This document shows positions 21,252 to 33,482 of a stretch of 64,000 nt of DNA, piece after piece. A program made the translations under genes and the position numbers. How positions within the stretch are numbered: the first letter of the stretch is position 1; the number at the start of each line of letters is the position of its first letter. This DNA is from Sagittula marina (GTDB lineage: Bacteria; Pseudomonadota; Alphaproteobacteria; Rhodobacterales; Rhodobacteraceae). The stretch is taken from positions 1 to 64,000 of the forward strand of contig NZ_JACIEJ010000004.1 in assembly GCF_014196795.1 (NCBI RefSeq), read 5' to 3'. Below the pieces are notes generated by a model. That model worked only from the letters and a program-made list of their open reading frames with translations, did not search any database and had not been told where the DNA came from.

Positions 21252-22160
21252 TCATGTTTGTTCGGTATCGCTTTCCAGACGCAAAAGTTCTGCGCGCATG
21301 CCCGTGACCAGTGCCTCGGCAAAGCGGTTCATACGCTCCAGCCGTCGGTCGTCCTCGTGGCGCACCAGATAAAACGTGCGCACCAGCGACAGCTCGTCGG
21401 GCAGCACACGGCGCAACCCCGGTGCGAGCGGCAGACTGAAATCATGCACCACGCCAAGGCCCGCGCCCTGCCGAAGCCAGTGGAATTGTACCGCGACCGA
21501 ATTGGAGGCCAGCGGCACCTCTGTCAGGCCCAGCTCCGCCAGGTAGTCCAGTTCCTTGTCAAAGATCATGTCCTGAATGTAGCCGACGATCCGATGACCG
21601 GTCAGATCGGCGCGGCAGCGGATCGGCGGATGCGCGTCAAGGTAGTCTCCGCTCGCCGCCAGATGCAGCTTGTAGTCGGCCACCTTTTGCACGACCAGCC
21701 GCCCCGCCGTGGGCCGCGAGACAGTGATCGCCATATCCGCCTCGCGCCGCGTCAGGTTCACCAGCCGCGGCAGGGCAACGATCTGCACCTCCAGATCCGG
21801 ATTGGCCTGTGCGATACGGGCGCAGACCTGCGGCAGCAGAAAGTTCGCACAGCCATCCGGTGCGCCGATGCGGATCTGCCCGGACAACCCTTCCGACCGA
21901 CCCTGCACCGCCTCCGCCGCCATCAGCGCCGCCTGCTCCGCCGATTCCGCATGGGCCACCAGACGGGTCCCGGCCTCCGTCAGCGCATAGCCTTGCGGGC
22001 TTTTGACAAACAGCGCCGCCCCCATGACCTGCTCCAGCCGGGCGATCCGCCGCCCCACCGTGGCCGGGTCCATACGCAACAGCTTGCCCGCGGCCGACAG
22101 GCTTTCCCCACGTGCGACGCTCAGAAAAACCCGTAAATCGTCCCAGTCCACATCACTCAT
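21252..22160 (-). CDS. LysR-family transcriptional regulator
   Basis: A 302-residue LysR protein. Its N-terminal HTH reads DDLRVFLSVARGESLSAAG, followed by the conserved GRRIARLE turn and an effector-binding domain. It is divergent from mmsA with 93 bp between the starts, a standard LysR arrangement, so it probably controls mmsA in response to a valine-degradation intermediate. The intergenic DNA holds TGCACCTGTGCA and repeated TTTTGCAA elements. Confidence 0.88.
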   Translation of the reverse strand: MSDVDWDDLRVFLSVARGESLSAAGKLLRMDPATVGRRIARLEQVMGAALFVKSPQGYALTEAGTRLVAHAESAEQAALMAAEAVQGRSEGLSGQIRIGAPDGCANFLLPQVCARIAQANPDLEVQIVALPRLVNLTRREADMAITVSRPTAGRLVVQKVADYKLHLAASGDYLDAHPPIRCRADLTGHRIVGYIQDMIFDKELDYLAELGLTEVPLASNSVAVQFHWLRQGAGLGVVHDFSLPLAPGLRRVLPDELSLVRTFYLVRHEDDRRLERMNRFAEALVTGMRAELLRLESDTEQT

Positions 22161-22163
22161 CCT

Positions 22164-22217
22164 GCATTTTTGCAAAGCCTCTTTGCCAGATTGCACCTGT
22201 GCACGGCAATTTTGCAA
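22164..22217. promoter_or_regulatory. LysR/mmsA divergent control region
   Basis: The perfect dyad TGCACCTGTGCA lies at 22192-22203, flanked by two similar elements, GCATTTTTGCAAA (from 22164) and GCAATTTTGCAAG (from 22206). Repeated half-sites in the gap between a LysR gene and its divergent partner are probable regulator sites. Confidence 0.5.
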
Positions 22218-22253
22218 GAGTATGGTCCACGCAACTTCACAGGAGGAACCCCT

Positions 22254-23750
22254 ATGGAACTCACGAACTGGATCAACGGCGCCCACGTCAAATCGACGTC
22301 CGGCAACCATTCCGACGTCTTCAACCCCGCCACCGGCGAAGTGCAGGCGAAAACGCCGCTGTCGACCGTGGACGAGCTGAACGATGCCGTGGCCAAAGCG
22401 GTCGAAGCACAAAAGGCATGGGGCGCCACCAACCCGCAGCGCCGCGCCCGCGTGATGATGAAATTCGGTGCGCTCATCAACGAGCACATGGATGAGCTGG
22501 CCGAGATGCTGTCGCGCGAGCACGGCAAGACCATTCCCGACGCCAAGGGCGACGTGCAGCGTGGCCTCGAAGTGGTCGAAGTCTGCATGGGCGCGCCGCA
22601 CATGCTCAAGGGTGAATTCACCGACAACGGCGGCCCCGGCATCGACCTGTGGTCCATGCGCCAGCCGCTGGGCGTCGTTGCTGGCATCACGCCGTTCAAC
22701 TTTCCCGCCATGATCCCGCTGTGGAAAATGGCCCCGGCGCTGACCTCCGGCAACGCCATGATCCTCAAGCCGTCCGAGCGCGTGCCCTCCACCGCGCTCC
22801 GCCTCGCCGAGCTGCTACAGGAAGCCGGCCTGCCCGACGGTGTGCTACAGGTCGTCAACGGTGACAAAACCGTGGTTGACGCGATCCTCGATCACGAAGA
22901 CGTGGCCGCCGTGGGCTTTGTCGGCTCCACACCCATCGCCCAGTACATCTATGGCCGCGCCGCGAACAACGGCAAGCGCGCACAGTGCTTTGGCGGTGCC
23001 AAGAACCACATGATCATCATGCCCGACGCGGACATCGACAAAGCCGCAGACGCGCTGGTCGGTGCCGGCTTTGGCGCGGCAGGCGAACGCTGCATGGCGA
23101 TCTCCGTGGCCGTTCCCGTGGGTCAGGAAACCGCAGACAAACTGATCGATGCGCTGAAACCCCGCGTCGAAAAGCTGCGCGTCGGCCCCTACAACTCCGA
23201 TCAGGAGATGGACTACGGCCCCGTCATCACCGCGCAGGCCAAACAGCGCATCGAAGGTCTGATCGCTTCTGGCGTTGACCAGGGCGCGGACCTGCTGATC
23301 GACGGTCGTGGTTTCGAGCTGCAAGGCTACGAGAACGGCTTCTTCTGTGGTCCGTCGCTGTTTGACAACGTCACGCCCGACATGGACATCTACAAGGAAG
23401 AGATCTTTGGCCCGGTTCTGACCACCGTGCGCGCCGACACCTACGAGGACGCACTGAACCTGGTGATGGACAACCCCTACGGCAACGGTACGGCGATCTA
23501 CACCGCCGACGGCGACACCGCGCGCGACTTTGCGCACCGTGTGAACGTGGGCATGGTCGGCATCAACTTCCCGATCCCGGTGCCGCTGTCGTACCACACC
23601 TTCGGCGGCTGGAAGAAATCCGCATTCGGCGACCTGAACCAATACGGCCCGGACGCCTTCCGCTTCTACACGAAGACCAAAACCGTCACCGCGCGCTGGT
23701 TCTCCGGCATCAAGGAAGGCGGCGAGTTCAACTTCAAAGCGATGGATTGA
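22254..23750 (+). CDS. mmsA: Methylmalonate-semialdehyde dehydrogenase (CoA-acylating)
   Basis: This 498-residue aldehyde dehydrogenase oxidises methylmalonate semialdehyde to propionyl-CoA in valine (and possibly myo-inositol) breakdown. AGGAGG seven bases upstream sets the start (MELTNWINGAHVKS). It has GITPFNFPAM near residue 145, GSTPIA in the NAD fold and catalytic Cys in GERCMAIS near residue 280; the GERCMA pattern is typical of CoA-dependent MmsA. The hydrolase and dehydrogenase that feed it lie at 29.7-31.6 kb. Confidence 0.95.
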   Translation: MELTNWINGAHVKSTSGNHSDVFNPATGEVQAKTPLSTVDELNDAVAKAVEAQKAWGATNPQRRARVMMKFGALINEHMDELAEMLSREHGKTIPDAKGDVQRGLEVVEVCMGAPHMLKGEFTDNGGPGIDLWSMRQPLGVVAGITPFNFPAMIPLWKMAPALTSGNAMILKPSERVPSTALRLAELLQEAGLPDGVLQVVNGDKTVVDAILDHEDVAAVGFVGSTPIAQYIYGRAANNGKRAQCFGGAKNHMIIMPDADIDKAADALVGAGFGAAGERCMAISVAVPVGQETADKLIDALKPRVEKLRVGPYNSDQEMDYGPVITAQAKQRIEGLIASGVDQGADLLIDGRGFELQGYENGFFCGPSLFDNVTPDMDIYKEEIFGPVLTTVRADTYEDALNLVMDNPYGNGTAIYTADGDTARDFAHRVNVGMVGINFPIPVPLSYHTFGGWKKSAFGDLNQYGPDAFRFYTKTKTVTARWFSGIKEGGEFNFKAMD

Positions 23751-23796
23751 TCGTAGCTTCGGGGCGGTCCCGCACCGCCCCGACCAAACCGTTTCA

Positions 23797-23830
23797 GGCG
23801 TGCCGCTGACCCGCGGCACGCCTTTTTTTT
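23797..23830 (+). terminator. Rho-independent terminator of mmsA
   Basis: GGCGTGCCGC and GCGGCACGCC form a perfect 10-bp stem with a 6-base loop, followed by eight T. A second GC hairpin (GGGGCGGT / ACCGCCCC) lies just upstream at 23761-23781. Confidence 0.92.
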
Positions 23831-24041
23831 GGGCGCTTGCCCCGGCTAAGCATTTTCTTGAAAGCGTGATGGCATCAAGCGACCTCCGGTTTTCCTCATA
23901 CCTTTTAACCGGTTGGGCCAATTTGCAGCGCATGCCGAATATCTCTGAAATATTTATAAACTTGTCATGAACTTTTACCGCCCTAAAGTGTGCTGTGAGG
24001 CGCTTTTCGTGTGCGGCGCGCCTACTCTCAGGGGGCACCTG

Positions 24042-24479
24042 ATGACGATTGAATACACGTTCCATCCAGACCAAAAACTGGCGTTTTTTCGCTTTTTCAA
24101 CCAGATCACGGTCCAGGACTGTGTCGAAACATTCCGCGCGTATGTGGCGCACCCTGATTTTCGGCCGGACGACCTCATGCTCTCGGACACACGCCAGCTT
24201 GAGGGAATAGATGCGACCTGTCTCGGCATCATCGTGGCCGTGGAACGGCTCCTGCCCTGCTTTCGCGCCTTTCCGGATACGGCACGCTCGATCATCTATG
24301 CCAAAAACGATTTGATCTTTGGCATGGCCCGAATGATGCAGCAAGTCATCGAACCGGTCAGCACGTTTGAATTTCAGATACATCGGACAGAGGCGGACGC
24401 GCTCGCCGCCGCCAACATGCCCCAGACCAGCCTGGATGATCTTGCGCGCGAACTTGGCGTTCTCGCTCCCCTCGCCTGA
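24042..24479 (+). CDS. Hypothetical STAS/SpoIIAA-like protein
   Basis: A 145-residue soluble protein starting MTIEYTFHPDQKLAFFRF, with GGGGG six bases upstream. The alternating strand/helix pattern (LMLSDTRQLEGIDAT, SIIYAKNDLIFGMARM) resembles SpoIIAA-like proteins of unknown function. A longer frame from 23967 has no ribosome site. It is 75 bp upstream of the carboxylate-amine ligase and may be cotranscribed. Confidence 0.55.
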   Translation: MTIEYTFHPDQKLAFFRFFNQITVQDCVETFRAYVAHPDFRPDDLMLSDTRQLEGIDATCLGIIVAVERLLPCFRAFPDTARSIIYAKNDLIFGMARMMQQVIEPVSTFEFQIHRTEADALAAANMPQTSLDDLARELGVLAPLA

Positions 24480-24554
24480 ACGCTTGTCCGTCGCGCCGGA
24501 ACCTGCTTTCCTGATCCTGCTCCGCGCACCGTCGGGGATATGGGGGACCAACAG

Positions 24555-25679
24555 ATGATCACACCGGCGTTCAGCATCGGCATCGAAGAAGAATACCTGC
24601 TGGTCGATCCCACCACGTGCGCTCTGGTCGAGGCGCCAAAATCCCTGATGACGGCCCTCACGCAGGACTTGGGGGATCAGGTCAGCCCCGAGTTCCTGCA
24701 ATGTCAGGTCGAAATCGGGACAAAGCCCTGCGCCACGATCAACGACGCCCGCGACGATCTCAAACGTCTGCGGAGCGCTGTCCTCACCCGCGCGGCAGAC
24801 CACGGGCTTGCCCCCATCGCGGCTTCCTGCCATCCGCTCGCCGACTGGAAAAAACAGACCCCCACGGACAAGGATCGCTACAATCAGCTTGGCCGCGACC
24901 TCGGCGGTGTGGTCCGCCGCATGTTGATCTGCGGGATGCATGTGCATGTCGGCCTGGACGATAACGCCCTGCGCGCAGACCTGATGCGTCAGGCAAGCTA
25001 CTTCCTGCCGCATCTTCTGGCGCTCTCGACCTCCTCGCCGTTCTGGCAGGGCGAAGACACCGGGCTGGCCTCCTACCGCATTTCGGTCTTCGACAACCTG
25101 CCCCGCACCGGCCTGCCACCGCAATTTTCAACCTGGGCGGAATTTGATCGCTCGGTGCAATTGCTCGTGGACCTCGGCGTGATTGAAGACAGTTCCAAGA
25201 TCTGGTGGGATCTGCGCCCGTCGTCCCGGTTTCCGACGCTGGAAACGCGGATCATGGATGTGCAGCCGCGTATGGAACACGCGCTGACACTGGCGGCGAT
25301 CACCCAATGCCTGATGCGGATGCTCTGGCGGTTGCGGGTCAAAAACCAGCGCTGGCGCGTCTACGACCGCTTCCTGATCGAGGAAAACCGCTGGCGCGCG
25401 CAACGCTATGGCACCACCGAAGGGCTGATCGACTACGGTCGCGGCGAGATCGTGCCTTTCGCGGAATTGGTCGAGGAACTGATCGACCTGCTCGAAGAAG
25501 ACGCAGGCGTGCTCGGCTGCGCGTCCGAGCTGCACCGCGCCCGCGACATGGTCAAAGCCACCTCCGCCACGCGGCAATTGGCGGTGCGCAATGCCGCACG
25601 CGACAGCGGCGCAGACAAGGACAGCCAGATGCGCGCCGTCGTCACCCATCTGATCGACGAATTCCACGCCGATCTCTGA
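24555..25679 (+). CDS. Carboxylate-amine ligase (YbdK/GCS2 family)
   Basis: A 374-residue member of the glutamate-cysteine ligase type 2 superfamily. The ATP/Mg-binding start [14 protein letters not shown] and the later [11 protein letters not shown] are diagnostic. YbdK proteins join a carboxylate to an amine, with weak glutamate-cysteine ligase activity in E. coli; the natural substrate here is unknown. I prefer ATG 24555 (GGGGG nine bases upstream) over ATG 24540. A glycosyltransferase follows 66 bp later. Confidence 0.85.
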
Positions 25680-25745
25680 ACGCCCCGCCCCTTGTCGCCC
25701 GCAACGCCGCGCGATAGGCAACGCCAAAGCTTGCAGAGGTCGCCC

Positions 25746-26876
25746 ATGACAGTCGCCATCGCCACTTCCGATTACTTCGTTCAGGGCGAGACCTTCATCA
25801 ATCGCCACATCGAACACATGTTCGGCGGCAACACCTGCGTGATCTGTGGCCGCCACAATGGACAGGACCCGCTGGGAAAACCGCTGTTCGAGCGCCGCGC
25901 AAAGCTGTCACGCGCCGACACGTTCCGCGCGCCCTTCGCCATTGCGGCAGGCGCTCTGACCCACGCCACCTCGCGCGTGCCCTTCGGGGACAACCGCCGC
26001 GCTCTGGCCCGGTTCATAAAGGCGCAGGACGTCGATGTGATCCTTGCGGAATTCGGCACACAGGCGATCGTTCTGGCGCCTCTGGCCAATGACCTGAACA
26101 TCCCGATCTTCACCTATTGGCGCGGCACCGACGCGTCCAAGATGCTGCGCGTCAAACAGCGCGTGCGGTCGTACAAGCTGATGATGCCCCGCCTCGCGGG
26201 CATGTTCTCCGTCAGCCAGTTCCTGCTCGACAACCTTGCCGCCCATGGCATCCGCCACGACAACGCCCACGTCGTGCCCTCCGGCGTCGACATTCGCCGC
26301 TTTACCCCCGGCGAAAAGCGCCCCGGCAGCTTCCTCGCCGTGGGACGTATGGTGGAAAAGAAAGCGCCGGAGATCACCCTGCGCGCCTTTGCCGAGGCCG
26401 CCCGGCAGCGTGACGCGCATCTGACCTTCATCGGTGACGGCCCCCTGTTGCAACGCTGCAAGGATCTGGCGCAATCCCTTGGCGTCGCTGACAAAATCAC
26501 CTTTACCGGCGCCCAGCCGCACGACGTTGTCCGCCAGCACCTGCACCATACCGAAGTGTTCCTGCAACACTCCGTCACGGCCAAGGACGGCAACACCGAA
26601 GGCCTCCCCACCGCCATTCAGGAGGCGCTGGCATCCGGCTGCATCACCCTGTCCACGCGCCATGCAGGCATCCCCGAAGCGGTCGAGGATGGCACGAACG
26701 GGCTGCTGGTCGACGAATGGGACGAAGCCGGGTTTGCACGCCAGATCGCCCACATCCTCGACATGCCCGACCGCTCCGCCATGGCCACCGCAGCGCGCCG
26801 AACCGCCGAAGAAAAATTCGACAACGCCAAGGGGCTCGCCCGGGTCGAGGACATCCTGCGCAAAACCCTCGCCTGA
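25746..26876 (+). CDS. Glycosyltransferase family 4 protein
   Basis: A 376-residue GT-B glycosyltransferase. The donor-binding half contains FLAVGRMVEKKAPE, HLTFIGDGPL and EGLPTAIQEALASG, the E-x7-E motif of GT4 retaining enzymes. It probably transfers a sugar onto an envelope lipid or polysaccharide; donor and acceptor are not evident. AGAGG seven bases upstream supports ATG 25746. Confidence 0.85.
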   Translation: MTVAIATSDYFVQGETFINRHIEHMFGGNTCVICGRHNGQDPLGKPLFERRAKLSRADTFRAPFAIAAGALTHATSRVPFGDNRRALARFIKAQDVDVILAEFGTQAIVLAPLANDLNIPIFTYWRGTDASKMLRVKQRVRSYKLMMPRLAGMFSVSQFLLDNLAAHGIRHDNAHVVPSGVDIRRFTPGEKRPGSFLAVGRMVEKKAPEITLRAFAEAARQRDAHLTFIGDGPLLQRCKDLAQSLGVADKITFTGAQPHDVVRQHLHHTEVFLQHSVTAKDGNTEGLPTAIQEALASGCITLSTRHAGIPEAVEDGTNGLLVDEWDEAGFARQIAHILDMPDRSAMATAARRTAEEKFDNAKGLARVEDILRKTLA

Positions 26877-26983
26877 CAGCACCTTGTAATTTACGGCAAA
26901 ATAACGGGAACATTCTGCACGGTTCCTCGTTGTATCCCCAGACGCCGGATTGGTTCGGCATAGATACATCTAGGAGATACATC

Positions 26984-27238
26984 ATGACCGGACTCGGTTG
27001 GTTCGCAGCTATCATCATCGGCGGCATTGCAGGTTGGCTTGCAGAAAAGTTCATGCATTCCAACATGGGCCTCATCATGAACATCATTCTTGGCATCGTG
27101 GGTGCCGTGATCCTCAACGCCATCCTGATGGCCGTCGTGGGCACCACGCTTGGCGGCTGGATCGGTCAGCTGATCATCGGCTTCATCGGTGCCTGCGCTC
27201 TGATCTTTATCGCACGCGCCGTACGTGGTCGCGCCTGA
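26984..27238 (+). CDS. GlsB/YeaQ/YmgE-family membrane protein
   Basis: An 84-residue protein with three glycine-rich membrane helices (FAAIIIGGIAGWLAEK..., LIMNIILGIVGAVI, LIIGFIGACALIFIA), typical of the transglycosylase-associated/YeaQ stress family. AGGAG eight bases before the ATG fixes the start. Its biochemical function is unknown; members are often stress-induced. A terminator follows at 27271. Confidence 0.88.
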   Translation: MTGLGWFAAIIIGGIAGWLAEKFMHSNMGLIMNIILGIVGAVILNAILMAVVGTTLGGWIGQLIIGFIGACALIFIARAVRGRA

Positions 27239-27270
27239 TATTTCAGTAGAAACTTTATAGAACGAACAAT

Positions 27271-27299
27271 GCGCGTCGGCCTTCGGCCGGCGCGTTTTT
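27271..27299 (+). terminator. Rho-independent terminator after the YeaQ-type gene
   Basis: GCGCGTCGGCC / GGCCGGCGCG form a stem with one mismatch around a TTC loop, followed by five T. It ends four bases before the next possible start codon (27303). Confidence 0.88.
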
Positions 27300-27302
27300 C
27301 AT

Positions 27303-28343
27303 ATGAAAGTGCCCATGTTCTCTGATCTCTCCCTTCCGCTCGTCCTGCTGATTTTTGCCGCCGCCGGAGCGGTTGTGATCTTTGCTTCGATCCGCGCCAC
27401 CCACCTTGCCGACACCATCGCCGACCGCACCCGCATGGGCGAAGCCATGGCCGGTGGCCTGATCCTTGGCGGCGCGACGTCACTGTCGGGCGTGGTGGTC
27501 TCCGTCACGGCGGCCAGTTCCGGAGACGCCAGTTTCGCCGTCTCCAACGCCGTCGGCGGCATCGCGGCCCAAACGCTGTTCCTCGCGCTGGCGGACATGC
27601 TGTGGAAGGGCGCCAATCTCGAACATGCCGCTGCCGAACCTGCCAACCTGTTTCAGGCCGTGATGCTCATCATCCTGCTGGCCTTTCCCGTGCTGGCCAT
27701 GGCGGGCCCTGATGTCTCCTTCCTTGGCATCCACCCCGTGAGCGTTCTGATTTTCCTCGCGTATCTCTATGGCGTGCGCCTGTCCTCCACCGTCGCCGAG
27801 GACCCCATGTGGACCCCGGTGGAAACCCGCGATACCCGCCACGACGAACCCGAGGACGATACCGAACAGAACAAATCCGCCAAGCGTCCCGCCATGATCT
27901 TCATCGCGTTGGTGACGCTGATGGGGCTGGCGGGATGGGTCATCAGCCAGATCGGCGGAAGCTTCATCACCCGCTTCGGGCTCTCGTCCTCGCTCGTCGG
28001 CGCGCTGCTGACCGCCGTCGTCACCTCCCTGCCCGAACTGGTCACCACCATTGTCGCCGTGCGCAAGGGCGCGTTGCAGCTGGCCGTGGGCGGGATCATC
28101 GGCGGCAACACCTTTGACACGCTGTTCCTCGTGTTCTCCGACGTGGCCTACCGCGATGGGTCGATCTACAATGCCGTCGGCCTCACCGATCTGTACTGGC
28201 TTGCCACGGGCCTGTTGATGACGGCCGTTCTGCTCGCGGGCCTCGTGCTGCGCCAGCGGCGCGGTCCGGCCCGCATCGGCGTCGAATCCGTGGTGATGAT
28301 CTGCATCTATGCCAGCGCCGTCGCTGTCGAAGTCCTCGCCTGA
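27303..28343 (+). CDS. Sodium/calcium exchanger-family antiporter
   Basis: A 346-residue inner-membrane protein with the two inverted alpha-repeats of the CaCA exchanger superfamily: ILGGATSLSGVVVSV near residue 55 and TAVVTSLPELVTTIVAV near 238, followed by GGIIGGNTFD. An acidic cytoplasmic loop (EPEDDTEQ) separates the halves. The ion is not certain. An ATG at 27315 is an alternative start, since 27303 abuts the upstream terminator. Confidence 0.82.
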   Translation: MKVPMFSDLSLPLVLLIFAAAGAVVIFASIRATHLADTIADRTRMGEAMAGGLILGGATSLSGVVVSVTAASSGDASFAVSNAVGGIAAQTLFLALADMLWKGANLEHAAAEPANLFQAVMLIILLAFPVLAMAGPDVSFLGIHPVSVLIFLAYLYGVRLSSTVAEDPMWTPVETRDTRHDEPEDDTEQNKSAKRPAMIFIALVTLMGLAGWVISQIGGSFITRFGLSSSLVGALLTAVVTSLPELVTTIVAVRKGALQLAVGGIIGGNTFDTLFLVFSDVAYRDGSIYNAVGLTDLYWLATGLLMTAVLLAGLVLRQRRGPARIGVESVVMICIYASAVAVEVLA

Positions 28344-28437
28344 CACACCTTGCAATCTGCGCCCCTCCCTGCCTAATCTGAACAAGCGTTCATTTACGGA
28401 GCCGCCCCAGCGGCCCCACGGCATGGGAGGGTCAGAA

Positions 28438-29577
28438 ATGGATTTTGCGCTGACAGAGGAACAATCGGCAATTTTCGACATGGCGCATGCCTTCGGGCAG
28501 GAACATATCGCGCCACATGCCCGCCAATGGGAAGCCGATGGCACCATCCCCAAAGACCTCTGGCCCCAGCTGGCGGACCTGGGCTTCGGCGGGCTCTATG
28601 TCTCCGAGGAATCCGGTGGCGCAGGTCTCAGCCGTCTGGACGCCACGCTCGTGTTCGAGGCGCTCTCCATGGCCTGCCCGTCTGTCGCGGCCTTCCTGTC
28701 GATCCACAACATGTGCGCCCGCATGATCGACAGCTTTGCGGACGACGCGTTCAAAGCCCGCGTTCTGCCAAAGGCGCTCAGCATGGAAACCGTGCTCAGC
28801 TACTGCCTGACCGAACCCGGGTCCGGCTCTGACGCCGCCGCCCTGAAAACCCGCGCCGCAAAGACCGACCAGGGCTACACCCTCAACGGGACCAAGGCCT
28901 TCATCTCCGGCGGCGGCTATTCGGATGCCTATATCGTCATGGCACGCACCGGCGCGGACGGCCCCAAAGGCATCTCCACCCTATACGTGGAAGACGGCAC
29001 CAAGGGCCTTTCCTTCGGGGGGCTGGAGGAAAAGATGGGCTGGAAAAGCCAACCCACCCGGCAGGTGCAGTTCGACGATTGCCACGTGCCACCAACCGCC
29101 CTGCTCGGCGAAGAAGGCAAAGGCTTCAAATACGCCATGGCCGGGCTGGACGGCGGCCGCCTGAACATCTCCGCCTGCTCGCTCGGTGCGGCGCAGACCG
29201 CGCTCACCATGACGCTGCAATACATGTCCGAACGCCGTGCCTTCGGCCAATCCATCGACCAGTTTCAGGCGCTGCAATTCCGCCTCGCAGACATGGAAAT
29301 CGAACTGCAGGCCGCCCGCACCTTCCTGCGTCAGGCCGCCTGGAAGCTCGACACCGGCGCGCCTGACGCCACCAAATTCTGTGCCATGGCCAAGAAATTC
29401 GTCACCGAGGCGGGCTCCAAAACCGTGGATCAATGCCTGCAACTGCACGGCGGTTACGGCTACCTCGCGGATTACGGCATCGAAAAACTGGTCCGCGATC
29501 TGCGCGTGCACCAGATCCTCGAAGGCACCAATGAAATCATGCGCCTGATCGTCGCGCGCCAGATGCTGGCCAGCTGA
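28438..29577 (+). CDS. Acyl-CoA dehydrogenase (probably isobutyryl-CoA)
   Basis: A 379-residue FAD flavoenzyme. It has YCLTEPGSGSDAAAL, the FAD/substrate signature, near residue 122, and QLHGGYGYLADYG plus ILEGTNEIMR near the C-terminus; the Glu in EGTNE is the usual catalytic base. GGGAGG seven bases before ATG 28438 sets the start. Because valine-pathway enzymes follow 80 bp downstream, isobutyryl-CoA is the likely substrate, giving methacrylyl-CoA; other branched acyl-CoAs are possible. Confidence 0.88.
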   Translation: MDFALTEEQSAIFDMAHAFGQEHIAPHARQWEADGTIPKDLWPQLADLGFGGLYVSEESGGAGLSRLDATLVFEALSMACPSVAAFLSIHNMCARMIDSFADDAFKARVLPKALSMETVLSYCLTEPGSGSDAAALKTRAAKTDQGYTLNGTKAFISGGGYSDAYIVMARTGADGPKGISTLYVEDGTKGLSFGGLEEKMGWKSQPTRQVQFDDCHVPPTALLGEEGKGFKYAMAGLDGGRLNISACSLGAAQTALTMTLQYMSERRAFGQSIDQFQALQFRLADMEIELQAARTFLRQAAWKLDTGAPDATKFCAMAKKFVTEAGSKTVDQCLQLHGGYGYLADYGIEKLVRDLRVHQILEGTNEIMRLIVARQMLAS

Positions 29578-29657: not shown

Positions 29658-30698
29658 ATGAGCGATCTGCATATCCGTACCACCGGCCAGGCTGGCCACA
29701 TCACCCTCACCCGGCCAAAGGCGCTGAACGCCCTGTCCCACGACATGTGTCTGGCCATCGAACAGGCCATCGACGCCTGGCGCACTGATGACTCCGTCGC
29801 GCTGGTGATCCTCGACGCCGAGGGAGAAAAGGCCTTCTGCGCCGGCGGCGACATCGCGCAGATGTACCGCAGCGGCATCGCGGGCAACCCGGACTTTGCC
29901 CGTACGTTCTGGCGCGAGGAATACCGCCTCAACGCCAAGCTGGCGGAATACCCCAAGCCGATCGTCTCGTTCCTTCAGGGGTTCACCATGGGCGGCGGCG
30001 TGGGGCTTGGCGGCCATGTCAGCCACCGCATTGTCGGCGATACCTCAAAGATTGCGATGCCGGAGGTTTCCATCGGCTTCATCCCGGACGTGGGCGGCAC
30101 CTACCGTCTGGCCAAGGCGCCGGGCCGCCTGGGTGAATACCTCGGCCTCACCGCCCACCGCATGACCGCCGGCGATGCGATCCACGCGGGTTTTGCCGAT
30201 CTCTACATCCCTGAAGACGCGTGGCCCACGCTCAAGACCACCCTGTCCGAAACCGGCCAGACCGACGCGCTCACGCAGGCCGCGCAGACGCCGCCCGCCA
30301 GCGCTCTCGCCGACCAGCAATCGCAGATCGACGCCCTCTTCGCCGGGGAGACACTGACAGATGTCATCAACCTGCTGCGCCACGGCACATCGGATTTTGC
30401 GGCCGAAACCCTCGCCACGCTGGAGAAACTCTCGCCGTTGTCGATGGCCATGACGCTGGAGATGATCCACCGCCTGCGCGGCCCCTCGCTCGACATTCGC
30501 AAGGCGCTGGAACTCGAATATCGCGTCAGCCACCGCATCATGGAGCATGGCGATTTTCTCGAAGGCATCCGCGCCGCCATCATCGACAAGGACAAGACCC
30601 CGCACTGGCGCCACACCCTCGACAATCTGCCCTCTGTGGCGGTGTCGAAAATGCTGATGCCGCTGGGCAAAGACACATTGGATTTCAAGGAGAGCAGC
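29658..30698 (+). CDS. 3-hydroxyisobutyryl-CoA hydrolase (N-terminal part of a fused frame)
   Basis: The first 347 residues of a 638-codon frame (29658-31574) form an enoyl-CoA hydratase-type protein. FCAGGDIAQMY and GFTMGGGVGLGGH build the oxyanion hole, and MPEVSIGFIPDVGGTY supplies the Glu/Asp typical of 3-hydroxyisobutyryl-CoA hydrolases rather than hydratases. It would release 3-hydroxyisobutyrate in valine breakdown. There is no stop codon before the dehydrogenase that follows in the same frame. Confidence 0.88.
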
Positions 30699-31574
30699 AT
30701 GAACATCGCCTTTATCGGACTGGGCAACATGGGCGCGCCCATGGCCGCCAACCTCGCCAAGGCAGGCCACACCGTCACAGGTTTTGACGTGGCCGGCACC
30801 ACCGCCGAGGGCGTGGCCATGGCGGATACAGCGGCCAAGGCCGTCGCGGATGCCGCCGTGGTCATCACCATGCTGCCAAACGGTCAGATCCTGCGTGACG
30901 TCGCCGCCGACATCATCCCGCACATGGCCAAGGGCGCGGTGCTGCTCGATTGCTCCACCGTGGACGTGGACGCCGCCCGCGCGGTGGCCGAGCTCTGCAC
31001 GCAATCGGGGCTGCTCGCGCTGGACGCGCCTGTCTCCGGCGGCATTGGCGGCGCGGCGGGCGGCACGCTCACCTTCATGGTCGGCGGCTCCGGCGACGCC
31101 TTTGCCATCGGCAAGCCGCTGTTCGACATCATGGGGCAAAAAGCCGTGCACTGCGGCGCCTCCGGCAACGGTCAGGCGGCCAAGATCTGCAACAACATGA
31201 TCCTTGGCGTCACCATGATCGCCACCTGCGAGGCGTTCTCGCTCGCGGACAAGCTGGGTCTCTCGCGTGAGGCGATGTTCGACGTGGTCTCCACCTCTTC
31301 GGGGTACTCATGGTCGATGAACGCCTACTGCCCCGCGCCAGGCGTCGGTCCGCAATCCCCGGCGGACAACGACTACAAACCGGGCTTCGCCGCCGATCTG
31401 ATGCTGAAGGATCTGCGCCTCAGCCAACAAGCCGCCGAAGCCGCAGATGCCGACACCCCCATGGGGGAAGCCGCCTGCGAACTCTACCGCCAATTCGTCG
31501 AGGCCGAGGATGGCAAGGGCCGCGACTTCTCCGCCATGTTGCCCCGCCTCGCCGCACGCAAACGCGGCGAATGA
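30699..31574 (+). CDS. mmsB: 3-hydroxyisobutyrate dehydrogenase (C-terminal part of the fused frame)
   Basis: Residues 348-638 of the fused frame are a complete 291-residue 3-hydroxyisobutyrate dehydrogenase: MNIAFIGLGNMGAPM for NAD, the DAPVSGGIGGAAGG substrate loop and the catalytic Lys in GQAAKICNN. AAGGAG (30687-30692) sits six bases before its own ATG at 30699, so it may also be made alone. It produces methylmalonate semialdehyde, the substrate of MmsA. It is joined in frame to the hydrolase. Confidence 0.93.
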   Translation: MNIAFIGLGNMGAPMAANLAKAGHTVTGFDVAGTTAEGVAMADTAAKAVADAAVVITMLPNGQILRDVAADIIPHMAKGAVLLDCSTVDVDAARAVAELCTQSGLLALDAPVSGGIGGAAGGTLTFMVGGSGDAFAIGKPLFDIMGQKAVHCGASGNGQAAKICNNMILGVTMIATCEAFSLADKLGLSREAMFDVVSTSSGYSWSMNAYCPAPGVGPQSPADNDYKPGFAADLMLKDLRLSQQAAEAADADTPMGEAACELYRQFVEAEDGKGRDFSAMLPRLAARKRGE

Positions 31575-31580
31575 TTGCCT

Positions 31581-31608
31581 GCCGCTCAGCGCCAAATCGC
31601 TGAGCGGC
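31581..31608 (+). terminator. Strong hairpin after mmsB
   Basis: GCCGCTCAGCG and CGCTGAGCGGC form an 11-bp perfect stem with a 6-base loop eight bases after the mmsB stop. There is no T-run, so it may protect the 3' end or act with Rho rather than terminate alone. Confidence 0.55.
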
Positions 31609-31619
31609 AAAGCACTTAT

Positions 31620-31632
31620 GGAACGGTTTCCC
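31620..31632 (+). promoter_or_regulatory. GGAACGGTTTCCC element
   Basis: This near-palindrome lies 48 bp before the first secreted CPxGLAxK protein. An almost identical perfect palindrome lies 40 bp before its relative at 32430, suggesting shared control by one unknown regulator. Confidence 0.4.
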
Positions 31633-31679
31633 GGACGGGCGCATTTCTTGCAAATCGTCCCTGTCAAAGGAATCGTTCC

Positions 31680-32030
31680 ATGTTTCGGACACTGACCGCT
31701 GCCACCCTCGCCGTCGCCACACTGTCGATGCCCTTCGCCGCCCAGGCGGGCTCCACGGGCTGTCCTCAAGGTCTGGCGCAAAAGAACAATGGATGCATGG
31801 CCCCCGGTCAGGCGAAAAAGCAGCCCGCCACACATGACCAGACAGACATCATTGTGCTGGCTCCGGGTGACCGCCTCTCAGGCGAATACCGCCGCATCGA
31901 CGACCCAAGCCAATACGGCCTCAACCCGCATCGCGCGTATTATCGCGTCAATGATCAGATCTACCGCGTTGATCGCCACACCAAAGAGGTTCTGGATGTC
32001 ATCGGAGCCGTCGCCGCGCTGGAGAACTGA
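31680..32030 (+). CDS. Secreted protein with CP-GLA-K motif and RcnB-like tail
   Basis: A 116-residue protein with a clear signal peptide (cleavage near AQA-GST). A short Cys motif follows: CPQGLAQKNNGCMAPGQAKK. The C-terminal unit YYRVNDQIYRVD resembles RcnB-type periplasmic domains. AAGGAA precedes ATG 31680. It shares both the Cys motif and the tail unit with the 32430 protein. Such small proteins have often been mislabelled as excinuclease subunits because they lie next to uvrA; nothing here suggests DNA repair. Confidence 0.6.
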   Translation: MFRTLTAATLAVATLSMPFAAQAGSTGCPQGLAQKNNGCMAPGQAKKQPATHDQTDIIVLAPGDRLSGEYRRIDDPSQYGLNPHRAYYRVNDQIYRVDRHTKEVLDVIGAVAALEN

Positions 32031-32122: not shown

Positions 32123-32323
32123 ATGACAAAGAACATGGGACAGGCCGACCGCCTCATCCGAAGCATCCTGGGCGTTGTGCTCATATTGCTCGCCGTTACG
32201 AGCCTGGCCAGCGTCTGGGCATGGATCGCCGGAGGGGTCGGCGCCGTCATGCTCGCAACTGCGGCGTTGGGCACGTGCCCGCCCTACAGCTTGCTCGGCA
32301 TCAACACCTGCAGTCGAAAGTGA
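32123..32323 (+). CDS. DUF2892 (YgaP-type) small membrane protein
   Basis: A 66-residue protein starting MTKNMGQADRLIRSILGVVL, with two membrane helices and the CPPYSLLGINTC ending, characteristic of the DUF2892/YgaP transmembrane family. GGAG seven bases upstream fixes the start. In several bacteria this domain accompanies rhodanese and persulfide-handling genes; here it sits alone between two secreted proteins. Confidence 0.85.
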   Translation: MTKNMGQADRLIRSILGVVLILLAVTSLASVWAWIAGGVGAVMLATAALGTCPPYSLLGINTCSRK

Positions 32324-32377
32324 CATAAGCAGACGACGCCGAATGCTCTCGAAACAGGCGGTGACGATCTGCGATCA

Positions 32378-32390
32378 GGGAACGGTTCCC
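32378..32390 (+). promoter_or_regulatory. GGGAACGGTTCCC palindrome
   Basis: A perfect 13-bp palindrome, itself bracketed by GATC on both sides (32373-32376 and 32391-32394), 40 bp before the secreted protein at 32430. Compare 31620-31632. Confidence 0.45.
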
Positions 32391-32429
32391 GATCACATCG
32401 CGTTGATCACTCAAAGAAAGGTCCAACGC

Positions 32430-33482
32430 ATGTACAAACTTCTCATGGGTGGAGCCGTGGCCTTTGCCATGTCCTCCACCGCGCTCTCCGCCGCGCCGAT
32501 CCAACTGCACAGGGGCATTTCGTTGCCCAGCGACGCCGCTGCCCAAGCCGACATCTGGCTTGCAAAAGGCAAGGACGACAAGGGCAACGGCAAAGCCAAG
32601 GGCCACGCCAAAAAGGTGAAGAAAAACCACGGTCCTAACCATGAGGACAAGGGCCCGAAGGGCAAAGACAAGCCCAAGAAAGCCAAGGCTAACGGCAACG
32701 GCAACGGCAACGGCAAGCCTGAAAAGGTCAAAGCCGACAAGGGCAAGGGCAACGGTTCTGCGAACGCCGCAGAAAACAACGCCAGTGCAAAACTCCGCCG
32801 CGCCTTCACGCCCGAAGAGCGCCAGGAAACGGCAACCCGCCTCTTTTCAACTTCTGCGCCCAGTGGCCGTGATATGCTGACCGTGCTCGGCGCGACAGCG
32901 CTCGGTCTGGCATCGTCGCAACTGGTGGTGGCTGACACACCCGAGGGTGAGCTGATCACCTACGCCAACTGCCCGCCCGGGCTTGCCAAGAAAGACCCAC
33001 CCTGCGTGCCACCGGGCCTCGCCAAGAAAGGCGTGACCTTCGACGAGTGGGCATCTTACGATCGCGACCGCTATGACGAGATCTGGGTAGAGCGTCGCGA
33101 GGCATGGAATGACCGCGATGTGGTGCCGGAGCCAGACCTGCTTTTGCTTCAATCCGATGACATCGCAGAGCTTTTCAATCTCGGCCCCGCACCCTCCGGG
33201 CAGCGCTACGGCCTGATCGACGGCCTGCCGGTGTTGCTGGACGAAGAGGATTACACATCGCTTCTGCTGGTCAATCAGATGGCGCAGATCGACGGCCTCA
33301 GTGACAGCCTGCCCATCGCACCGACCGCCGCGCTGACGCAAGATGAGCTGATCAGCCTCTACCGCTTGCCGCAACTCGGCGCGGAAGAAAACTACGCCGT
33401 GGTCAACGGCCAGCTCGTGCGGATGAACGACGACGAATACGAAATACTCCAGCTGATCCGCGTGGCACGCGCGATCCTTTAA
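32430..33482 (+). CDS. Secreted Lys/Gly/Asn-rich protein with tandem RcnB-like units
   Basis: A 350-residue protein with a signal peptide, then a strongly basic low-complexity stretch (residues 50-115, rich in K, G and N). The Cys motif CPPGLAKKDPPCVPPGLAKK is near residue 180. Two C-terminal repeats of a roughly 50-residue unit follow, around RYGLIDGLPVLLDEEDY and NYAVVNGQLVRMNDDEY. The motif and repeat unit are shared with the 116-residue protein at 31680. It is probably periplasmic or extracellular, and metal or polyanion binding is conceivable. No enzyme motif is seen. Confidence 0.6.
   Translation: MYKLLMGGAVAFAMSSTALSAAPIQLHRGISLPSDAAAQADIWLAKGKDDKGNGKAKGHAKKVKKNHGPNHEDKGPKGKDKPKKAKANGNGNGNGKPEKVKADKGKGNGSANAAENNASAKLRRAFTPEERQETATRLFSTSAPSGRDMLTVLGATALGLASSQLVVADTPEGELITYANCPPGLAKKDPPCVPPGLAKKGVTFDEWASYDRDRYDEIWVERREAWNDRDVVPEPDLLLLQSDDIAELFNLGPAPSGQRYGLIDGLPVLLDEEDYTSLLLVNQMAQIDGLSDSLPIAPTAALTQDELISLYRLPQLGAEENYAVVNGQLVRMNDDEYEILQLIRVARAIL

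Follow-up and report, generated by a model that had tools for sequence, protein, structure and literature searches.

The locus and the fused reading frame

The window, by which we mean the whole 64,000-nucleotide stretch of Sagittula marina contig NZ_JACIEJ010000004.1 analysed here, contains a single stop-free reading frame joining a 3-hydroxyisobutyryl-CoA hydrolase (HIBCH) to a 3-hydroxyisobutyrate dehydrogenase (HIBADH), consecutive enzymes of valine breakdown, as had been described in an earlier note made from the sequence alone (Table 1). The joint reads ...TLDFKESS-MNIAF, with a linker of six residues, and both domains scored above the curated cut-offs. Residues 3-341 matched the NCBIfam model NF004127 (3-hydroxyisobutyryl-CoA hydrolase) with 391 bits (cut-off 274), and residues 352-628 matched TIGR01692 (HIBADH) with 361 bits in the fusion and 364 bits for the half alone (cut-off 291.6). 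The Pfam assignments agreed with those of NCBIfam, placing ECH_2 at residues 13-329, followed by NAD_binding_2 and NAD_binding_11. E136 and D144 (numbering of the window's protein) in the HIBCH half, which we take to be the acid residues of the crotonase fold and to be catalytic, were invariant in 16 fused proteins, as were GLGNMG (G354-G359), SGG (S460-G462), K509 and N513 in the HIBADH half, presumably Rossmann and active-site elements of that enzyme. The dN/dS ratios for five pairs ranged from 0.08 to 0.30 for the HIBCH half and from 0.04 to 0.22 for the HIBADH half (285 codons; pairs including window-L089 and window-L090), pointing to evolution under constraint for both halves.

Table 1. 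Features of the fused locus and of its neighbourhood in the window
Feature	Position	Strand	Support or remark
LysR-type regulator, adjoining mmsA	21252-22601	-	HTH_1 and LysR_substrate; opposite strand
mmsA, methylmalonate-semialdehyde dehydrogenase	22266-23699	+	TIGR01722, 668 bits (cut-off 448.5); following pathway step
Acyl-CoA dehydrogenase, directly 5' of HIBCH	28438-29577	+	Pfam Acyl-CoA_dh N/M/1; joint with HIBCH used as control
HIBCH-HIBADH fusion ORF	29658-31574	+	638 codons, stop-free
HIBCH half, residues 1-341, 3-hydroxyisobutyryl-CoA hydrolase	29658-30680	+	NF004127, ECH_2 (PF16113), PDB relatives
Linker, residues 342-347 (DFKESS)	30681-30698	+	Sequence; also holds the internal ribosome site
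Internal Shine-Dalgarno site, AAGGAG	30687-30692	+	ATG follows after 6 nt; anti-SD duplex -8.3 kcal/mol
Internal ATG, HIBADH start codon	30699-30701	+	Start retained in 46/46 fused family genomes
HIBADH half (mmsB), 3-hydroxyisobutyrate dehydrogenase	30699-31574	+	291 codons; TIGR01692, PDB relatives

The genome carries the fusion in one copy, with no second close copy of HIBCH or HIBADH; the next matches were HIBADH-like proteins (33-35% identical) and hydrolase-like proteins (26-34% identical). The fusion must therefore work at least as a hydrolase. The acyl-CoA dehydrogenase lying directly upstream is probably the isobutyryl-CoA dehydrogenase of the valine pathway. A GCS2 carboxylate-amine ligase, a group 1 glycosyltransferase and a Na/Ca exchanger protein (23750-28438) separate mmsA from the other valine genes, and the LysR-type regulator is a candidate regulator of these genes. 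Just downstream of the fusion, the ORFs at 31575-32030 and 32175-33482 had no Pfam match; by eye, they have in common a short Cys-Pro...Gly-Leu-Ala motif, and the second contains a long Gly/Asn/Lys-rich stretch.

Solved relatives were found for the HIBCH half (4j2u, 4hdt) and for the HIBADH half (5y8g, 3obb), but none of the 60 PDB matches listed, of 96, covered both. For the hydrolase half, the solved relative with the highest score among the matches listed, 4j2u, aligned with query residues 1-347 and is labelled as an enoyl-CoA hydratase, a label that may be wrong. In a structure model of the fusion, both halves were confidently predicted (mean pLDDT 90.8) and the linker had neither helix nor strand; with a pTM of 0.67, the model fixes no domain-domain interface or arrangement. 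These features bear on the possibility that 3-hydroxyisobutyrate is channelled, that is, handed from one active site of the fusion to the other. Two consecutive steps with a free-acid intermediate would suit such a transfer. Convergent ALDH-ADH fusions are also reported to have evolved it (PMC12454647). Nevertheless, channelling appears unlikely here, given the short linker devoid of secondary structure, the model without a confident interface and the alternation of fused and unfused states on the gene tree described below.

The joint in related genomes

The earlier note had called for a comparison of the joint in relatives, and this was performed on two partly overlapping sets. The first (named set) consisted of contigs from one genome per species, limited to the best 80 of 592 relatives, a choice that favours in-frame hits. 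Both halves were present in 79 loci, including the window's own, and were fused in 16 of these: the window and 15 others, from Thetidibacter halocola, Pelagimonas varians, P. phthalicica, an uncultured Pelagimonas, Tropicibacter naphthalenivorans, Maliponia aquimaris, Marivita hallyeonensis, an uncultured Marivita, Thalassovita taeanensis, Thalassococcus profundi, Sulfitobacter brevis, Roseobacter sp. H9, an Ascidiaceihabitans, UBA1957 and Rhodobacterales 52_120_T64. The second set was a sample of 394 genomes of the family, 344 of which had a match. Joints were read in 212 of these 344 genomes, the other 132 lying outside the count; the 212 comprised 87 with a single match across the joint, three with a partial match, 52 with a two-piece match among the matches listed and 70 with a two-piece match taken in handle order. 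Eight were dropped (seven without both halves in the stretch and one with non-adjacent halves), leaving 204 classified pairs.

The two genes were fused in 46 of the 204 pairs, including that of a same-genus genome (G262, locus L089), so at least 46 of the 344 matching genomes of the family carry the fusion. In 45 of the 46, no stop interrupts the frame between the HIBCH start region and the end of HIBADH; in the remaining one (L202), the contig ends inside HIBADH. No fusion was found among the 52 or the 70 two-piece genomes, and one of the three partial ones (G119) was fused. Long open frames had also been flagged in three of the two-piece genomes (G051, G124 and G040), and these candidates were rejected, their joints (L141, L144 and L234) being 4-nt ATGA overlaps. 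Matches were found to 314 plasmid records, a count of matches only that has no bearing on the fusion state. An assembly or sequencing error of a single base at the joint would be enough to create an apparent fusion. However, 46 genomes in the family sample have an open joint, with joint sequences that differ from one another, and the joint is also open in 15 named loci besides the window. The one-frame bifunctional gene is thus conserved in relatives and the artefact reading is refuted for the fused state as such, the probability that we leave to it being negligible.

The two genes lay in the same frame in 92 of the 204 pairs, 46 of them fused and 46 with a stop. Another 32 pairs belonged to frame class 1, all with a stop before the HIBADH start, and 80 to frame class 2, comprising 55 ATGA overlaps of 4 nt, one overlap of 1 nt and 24 pairs with a stop before the start. 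The stop was absent from the joint in 46 of the 92 in-frame pairs, versus none of the 32 pairs of frame class 1 (Fisher p = 2e-8, a value that, like that for the control joint below, overstates the significance because relatives are not independent). Loss of the stop in frame class 1 would add a foreign tail out of the HIBADH frame, with a median run-on of 24 codons. The stop lay 0-6 nt before the ATG in 20 of the 46 separate in-frame pairs, so that fusion is a small mutational step away. These tightly packed pairs favour a neutral explanation, in which in-frame neighbours lost the stop by chance, the fusion was tolerated and free HIBADH does the dehydrogenase work.

The joint between the acyl-CoA dehydrogenase gene and HIBCH served as a control. 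It was readable in 167 stretches, the other 37 of the 204 ending short of that gene. No fusion was found at this joint among its 18 in-frame pairs in the family sample (p = 3e-5), nine of which had gaps of 20 nt or less, or among 17 in the named set, and this result argues against neutral stop loss. Fusion as a general habit of the operon was likewise unseen at this joint, the one control tested. The control joint is the more tightly packed of the two, with overlaps of 4 nt or less in 85 of the 167 pairs; four pairs overlap by 5-8 nt. Outside the family, spanning matches (counted by eye as starting before residue 120 and ending beyond residue 620) included no fusion among 31 in a class sample of 385 genomes or among 15 in a phylum sample of 398 genomes, with G458 present in both, and each had at least one stop. 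This also counts against neutral stop loss, although gaps can be longer there (24-153 nt, for example, in L058-L064 and L067-L069, distant loci of the named set), making a chance stop likelier. Long open frames around HIBADH were observed in other families.

The internal start and its predicted product

The AAGGAG six bases before the ATG at 30699 is present as the earlier note had reported, and the internal ribosome site is intact not only in the window, but in all 46 fused genes. The start codon was an ATG at the aligned place in 42 of these genes, an ATG three codons upstream in three and a TTG in one. In the three genes with the upstream ATG (L115, L160 and L173), each start has its own SD, so that the start moves but is kept. 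The predicted duplex with the anti-SD reached -5 kcal/mol or lower in all 46 (median -8.6), whereas 710 in-frame internal ATGs of the fused genes, used for comparison, had a median of -2.9 and reached this value in only 22% of cases; the internal start codon therefore has a better ribosome site than expected by chance. The internal site was also stronger than that of the HIBCH start in 42 of the 46 fused genes (-8.3 vs -3.3 in the window), and the same was true for 126 of the 137 separate pairs in which the HIBCH start could be read. The strength of the internal SD did not differ between fused and separate pairs (p = 0.30), a comparison that demonstrates retention rather than new selection, and that would also be expected if the stop had been lost neutrally.

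Codon usage in the four codons of the SD zone was skewed towards the SD sequence, with GAG accounting for 54 of 61 Glu codons (477 of 1040 elsewhere) and AGG for nine of 25 Arg codons (25 of 1236 elsewhere), and no such skew for Lys codons (12 of 22 vs 324 of 538 elsewhere). Together with the retention of the SD, the GAG and AGG skew suggests that a nucleotide signal has been kept although these bases now also encode the linker. The alternative is that the gene yields a bifunctional enzyme only, the SD and ATG being leftovers or kept by amino-acid constraint, with no free HIBADH. The linker is made up of polar or charged residues and might act as a simple spacer, and ribosome traffic is known to be able to mask internal sites: initiation at the internal start could be suppressed by ribosomes passing over it. 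We nevertheless find this alternative very doubtful, because the start and a site of -5 kcal/mol or lower persist in every fused gene, despite dS values of 0.67-1.73 between the window and members of its clade, and because of the codon skew.

In the absence of a stop after HIBCH, ribosomes translating it must continue, so HIBCH can be made only as part of the fusion; judging from the frame, the optional product of the gene would be free HIBADH, not free HIBCH. We infer that both products are made. Initiation at 29658 would yield the 638-residue fusion and no free HIBCH, and initiation at 30699, at the stronger site, would probably still yield a free HIBADH of 291 residues, which could top up the fused dehydrogenase half or co-assemble with it. 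The fusion would tie the supply of the hydrolase to the enzyme consuming its free-acid product.

History of the joint and relation to known systems

Gene trees were estimated with FastTree for the 204 pairs and, in a quick run, with IQ-TREE for 203. The fused state required 20 changes on the FastTree tree and 21 on the IQ-TREE tree, of which eight and nine, respectively, were forced by well-supported (starred) branches, against a mean of about 42 for shuffled labels; no shuffle out of 500 gave so few changes. Separate in-frame pairs required 41 and 39 changes, much like shuffled labels (212 and 116 of 500 as low). The reconstruction is limited by the uneven sampling of the frame classes and by the small number of well-supported inner branches (only 32 of 201 and 44 of 200). 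A four-state Markov model with a separate exit rate for the fused state gave a better fit (lnL -235.22 vs -238.40 and -234.75 vs -238.83), with a modelled exit rate of 2.3 for fused joints vs 11-21 for the other states; the gain in likelihood is modest, 2 x delta lnL being 6.4 and 8.2 for the single added parameter, and the relatives are not independent. On these trees, the join would have come and gone repeatedly within the family, and the fused state is clustered and appears, on a modest test, to persist for longer than in-frame separate states. Rapid turnover of the joint is what neutral stop loss would lead one to expect, but the longer persistence of the fused state is not, and neither is the lack of another close source of HIBCH in the genome; we regard this explanation as rather improbable.

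The window's clade (19 rows, SH-aLRT 98) contains 16 fused pairs, two of frame class 2 and one separate in-frame pair. The three separate forms, with a stop 3 nt (L103) or 11 nt (L258) before the ATG or an ATGA overlap (L276), count against a maintained fusion. The ancestor of the 19 rows was nonetheless reconstructed as fused, with a probability of about 1, so the fusion is probably older than the window's lineage. The earlier interpretation thus stands in part: the fusion of consecutive valine enzymes with an intact internal site holds, but its proposed origin, the recent loss of one T from TTCTAAGGAG, finds no support in the fused clade ancestor or in the separate pairs. Within the 25 nt preceding the start, TAAGGA was present in only five of 158 separate pairs, and in none of the 158 with a 10-nt gap; the two pairs with a gap of 10 nt in the frame class implied by that scheme read TAGGAG and TGAGGAG.

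Overall, we consider it likely that the fusion is maintained and yields a HIBCH-HIBADH enzyme that is obligately bifunctional, and that the former HIBADH start persists as a second site of translation initiation. The gain would most likely be a coupled dose or supply, or proximity, and the 4-nt overlap in 55 of the 204 pairs fits a preference for coupled synthesis. A broader possibility, put forward more tentatively, is that this single joint acts as a switch. HIBCH and HIBADH would flip between overlapping, separate and obligately fused states, and selection would keep the internal start in every fused lineage, fixing the dose of HIBCH to that of the fused dehydrogenase, with an adjustable free pool for mixed oligomers. 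Among the relatives, both enzymes occur naturally as fused, overlapping or separate versions, some of them apparently re-split, which makes possible a direct test of whether fusion brings channelling, dose control or nothing. They also carry a warning for annotation: where the genes are fused, a free dehydrogenase could be overlooked and the fusion mistaken for a frameshift error.

No paper on a HIBCH-HIBADH fusion was found among the matches listed from the open-licence literature, and a survey of frame transitions (PMC3711429) makes no mention of hydroxyisobutyrate in its main text. Fusions of consecutive metabolic enzymes are known from the aldehyde/alcohol dehydrogenases AdhE and BdhE (PMC12454647), histidine biosynthesis (PMC1963479) and G6PD-6PGL (PMC3148214). 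As in these systems, for which independent origins are reported, enzymes of neighbouring steps share one polypeptide; unlike what is described there, other enzymes are involved, the HIBCH-HIBADH joint flips within one bacterial family and the second start is kept. Tight coupling with a 4-nt overlap is reported as a pattern for subunits of complexes (PMC10666635). The ATGA overlaps of HIBCH and HIBADH in the family resemble such pairs, which keep a stop, unlike the joint of the window. A close parallel for the second start is Cas11b, which was shown by experiment to arise from internal in-frame translation within cas8b (PMC11899642). Here too, one frame would give both a long and a short product, the latter by internal initiation, but for HIBADH this is a prediction, and HIBADH is a complete metabolic enzyme that most of the sampled relatives encode as a separate gene. 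Neither the joining of consecutive enzymes nor in-frame initiation within a gene is therefore new in kind, and the novelty lies in the HIBCH-HIBADH pair, fused with a retained internal start.
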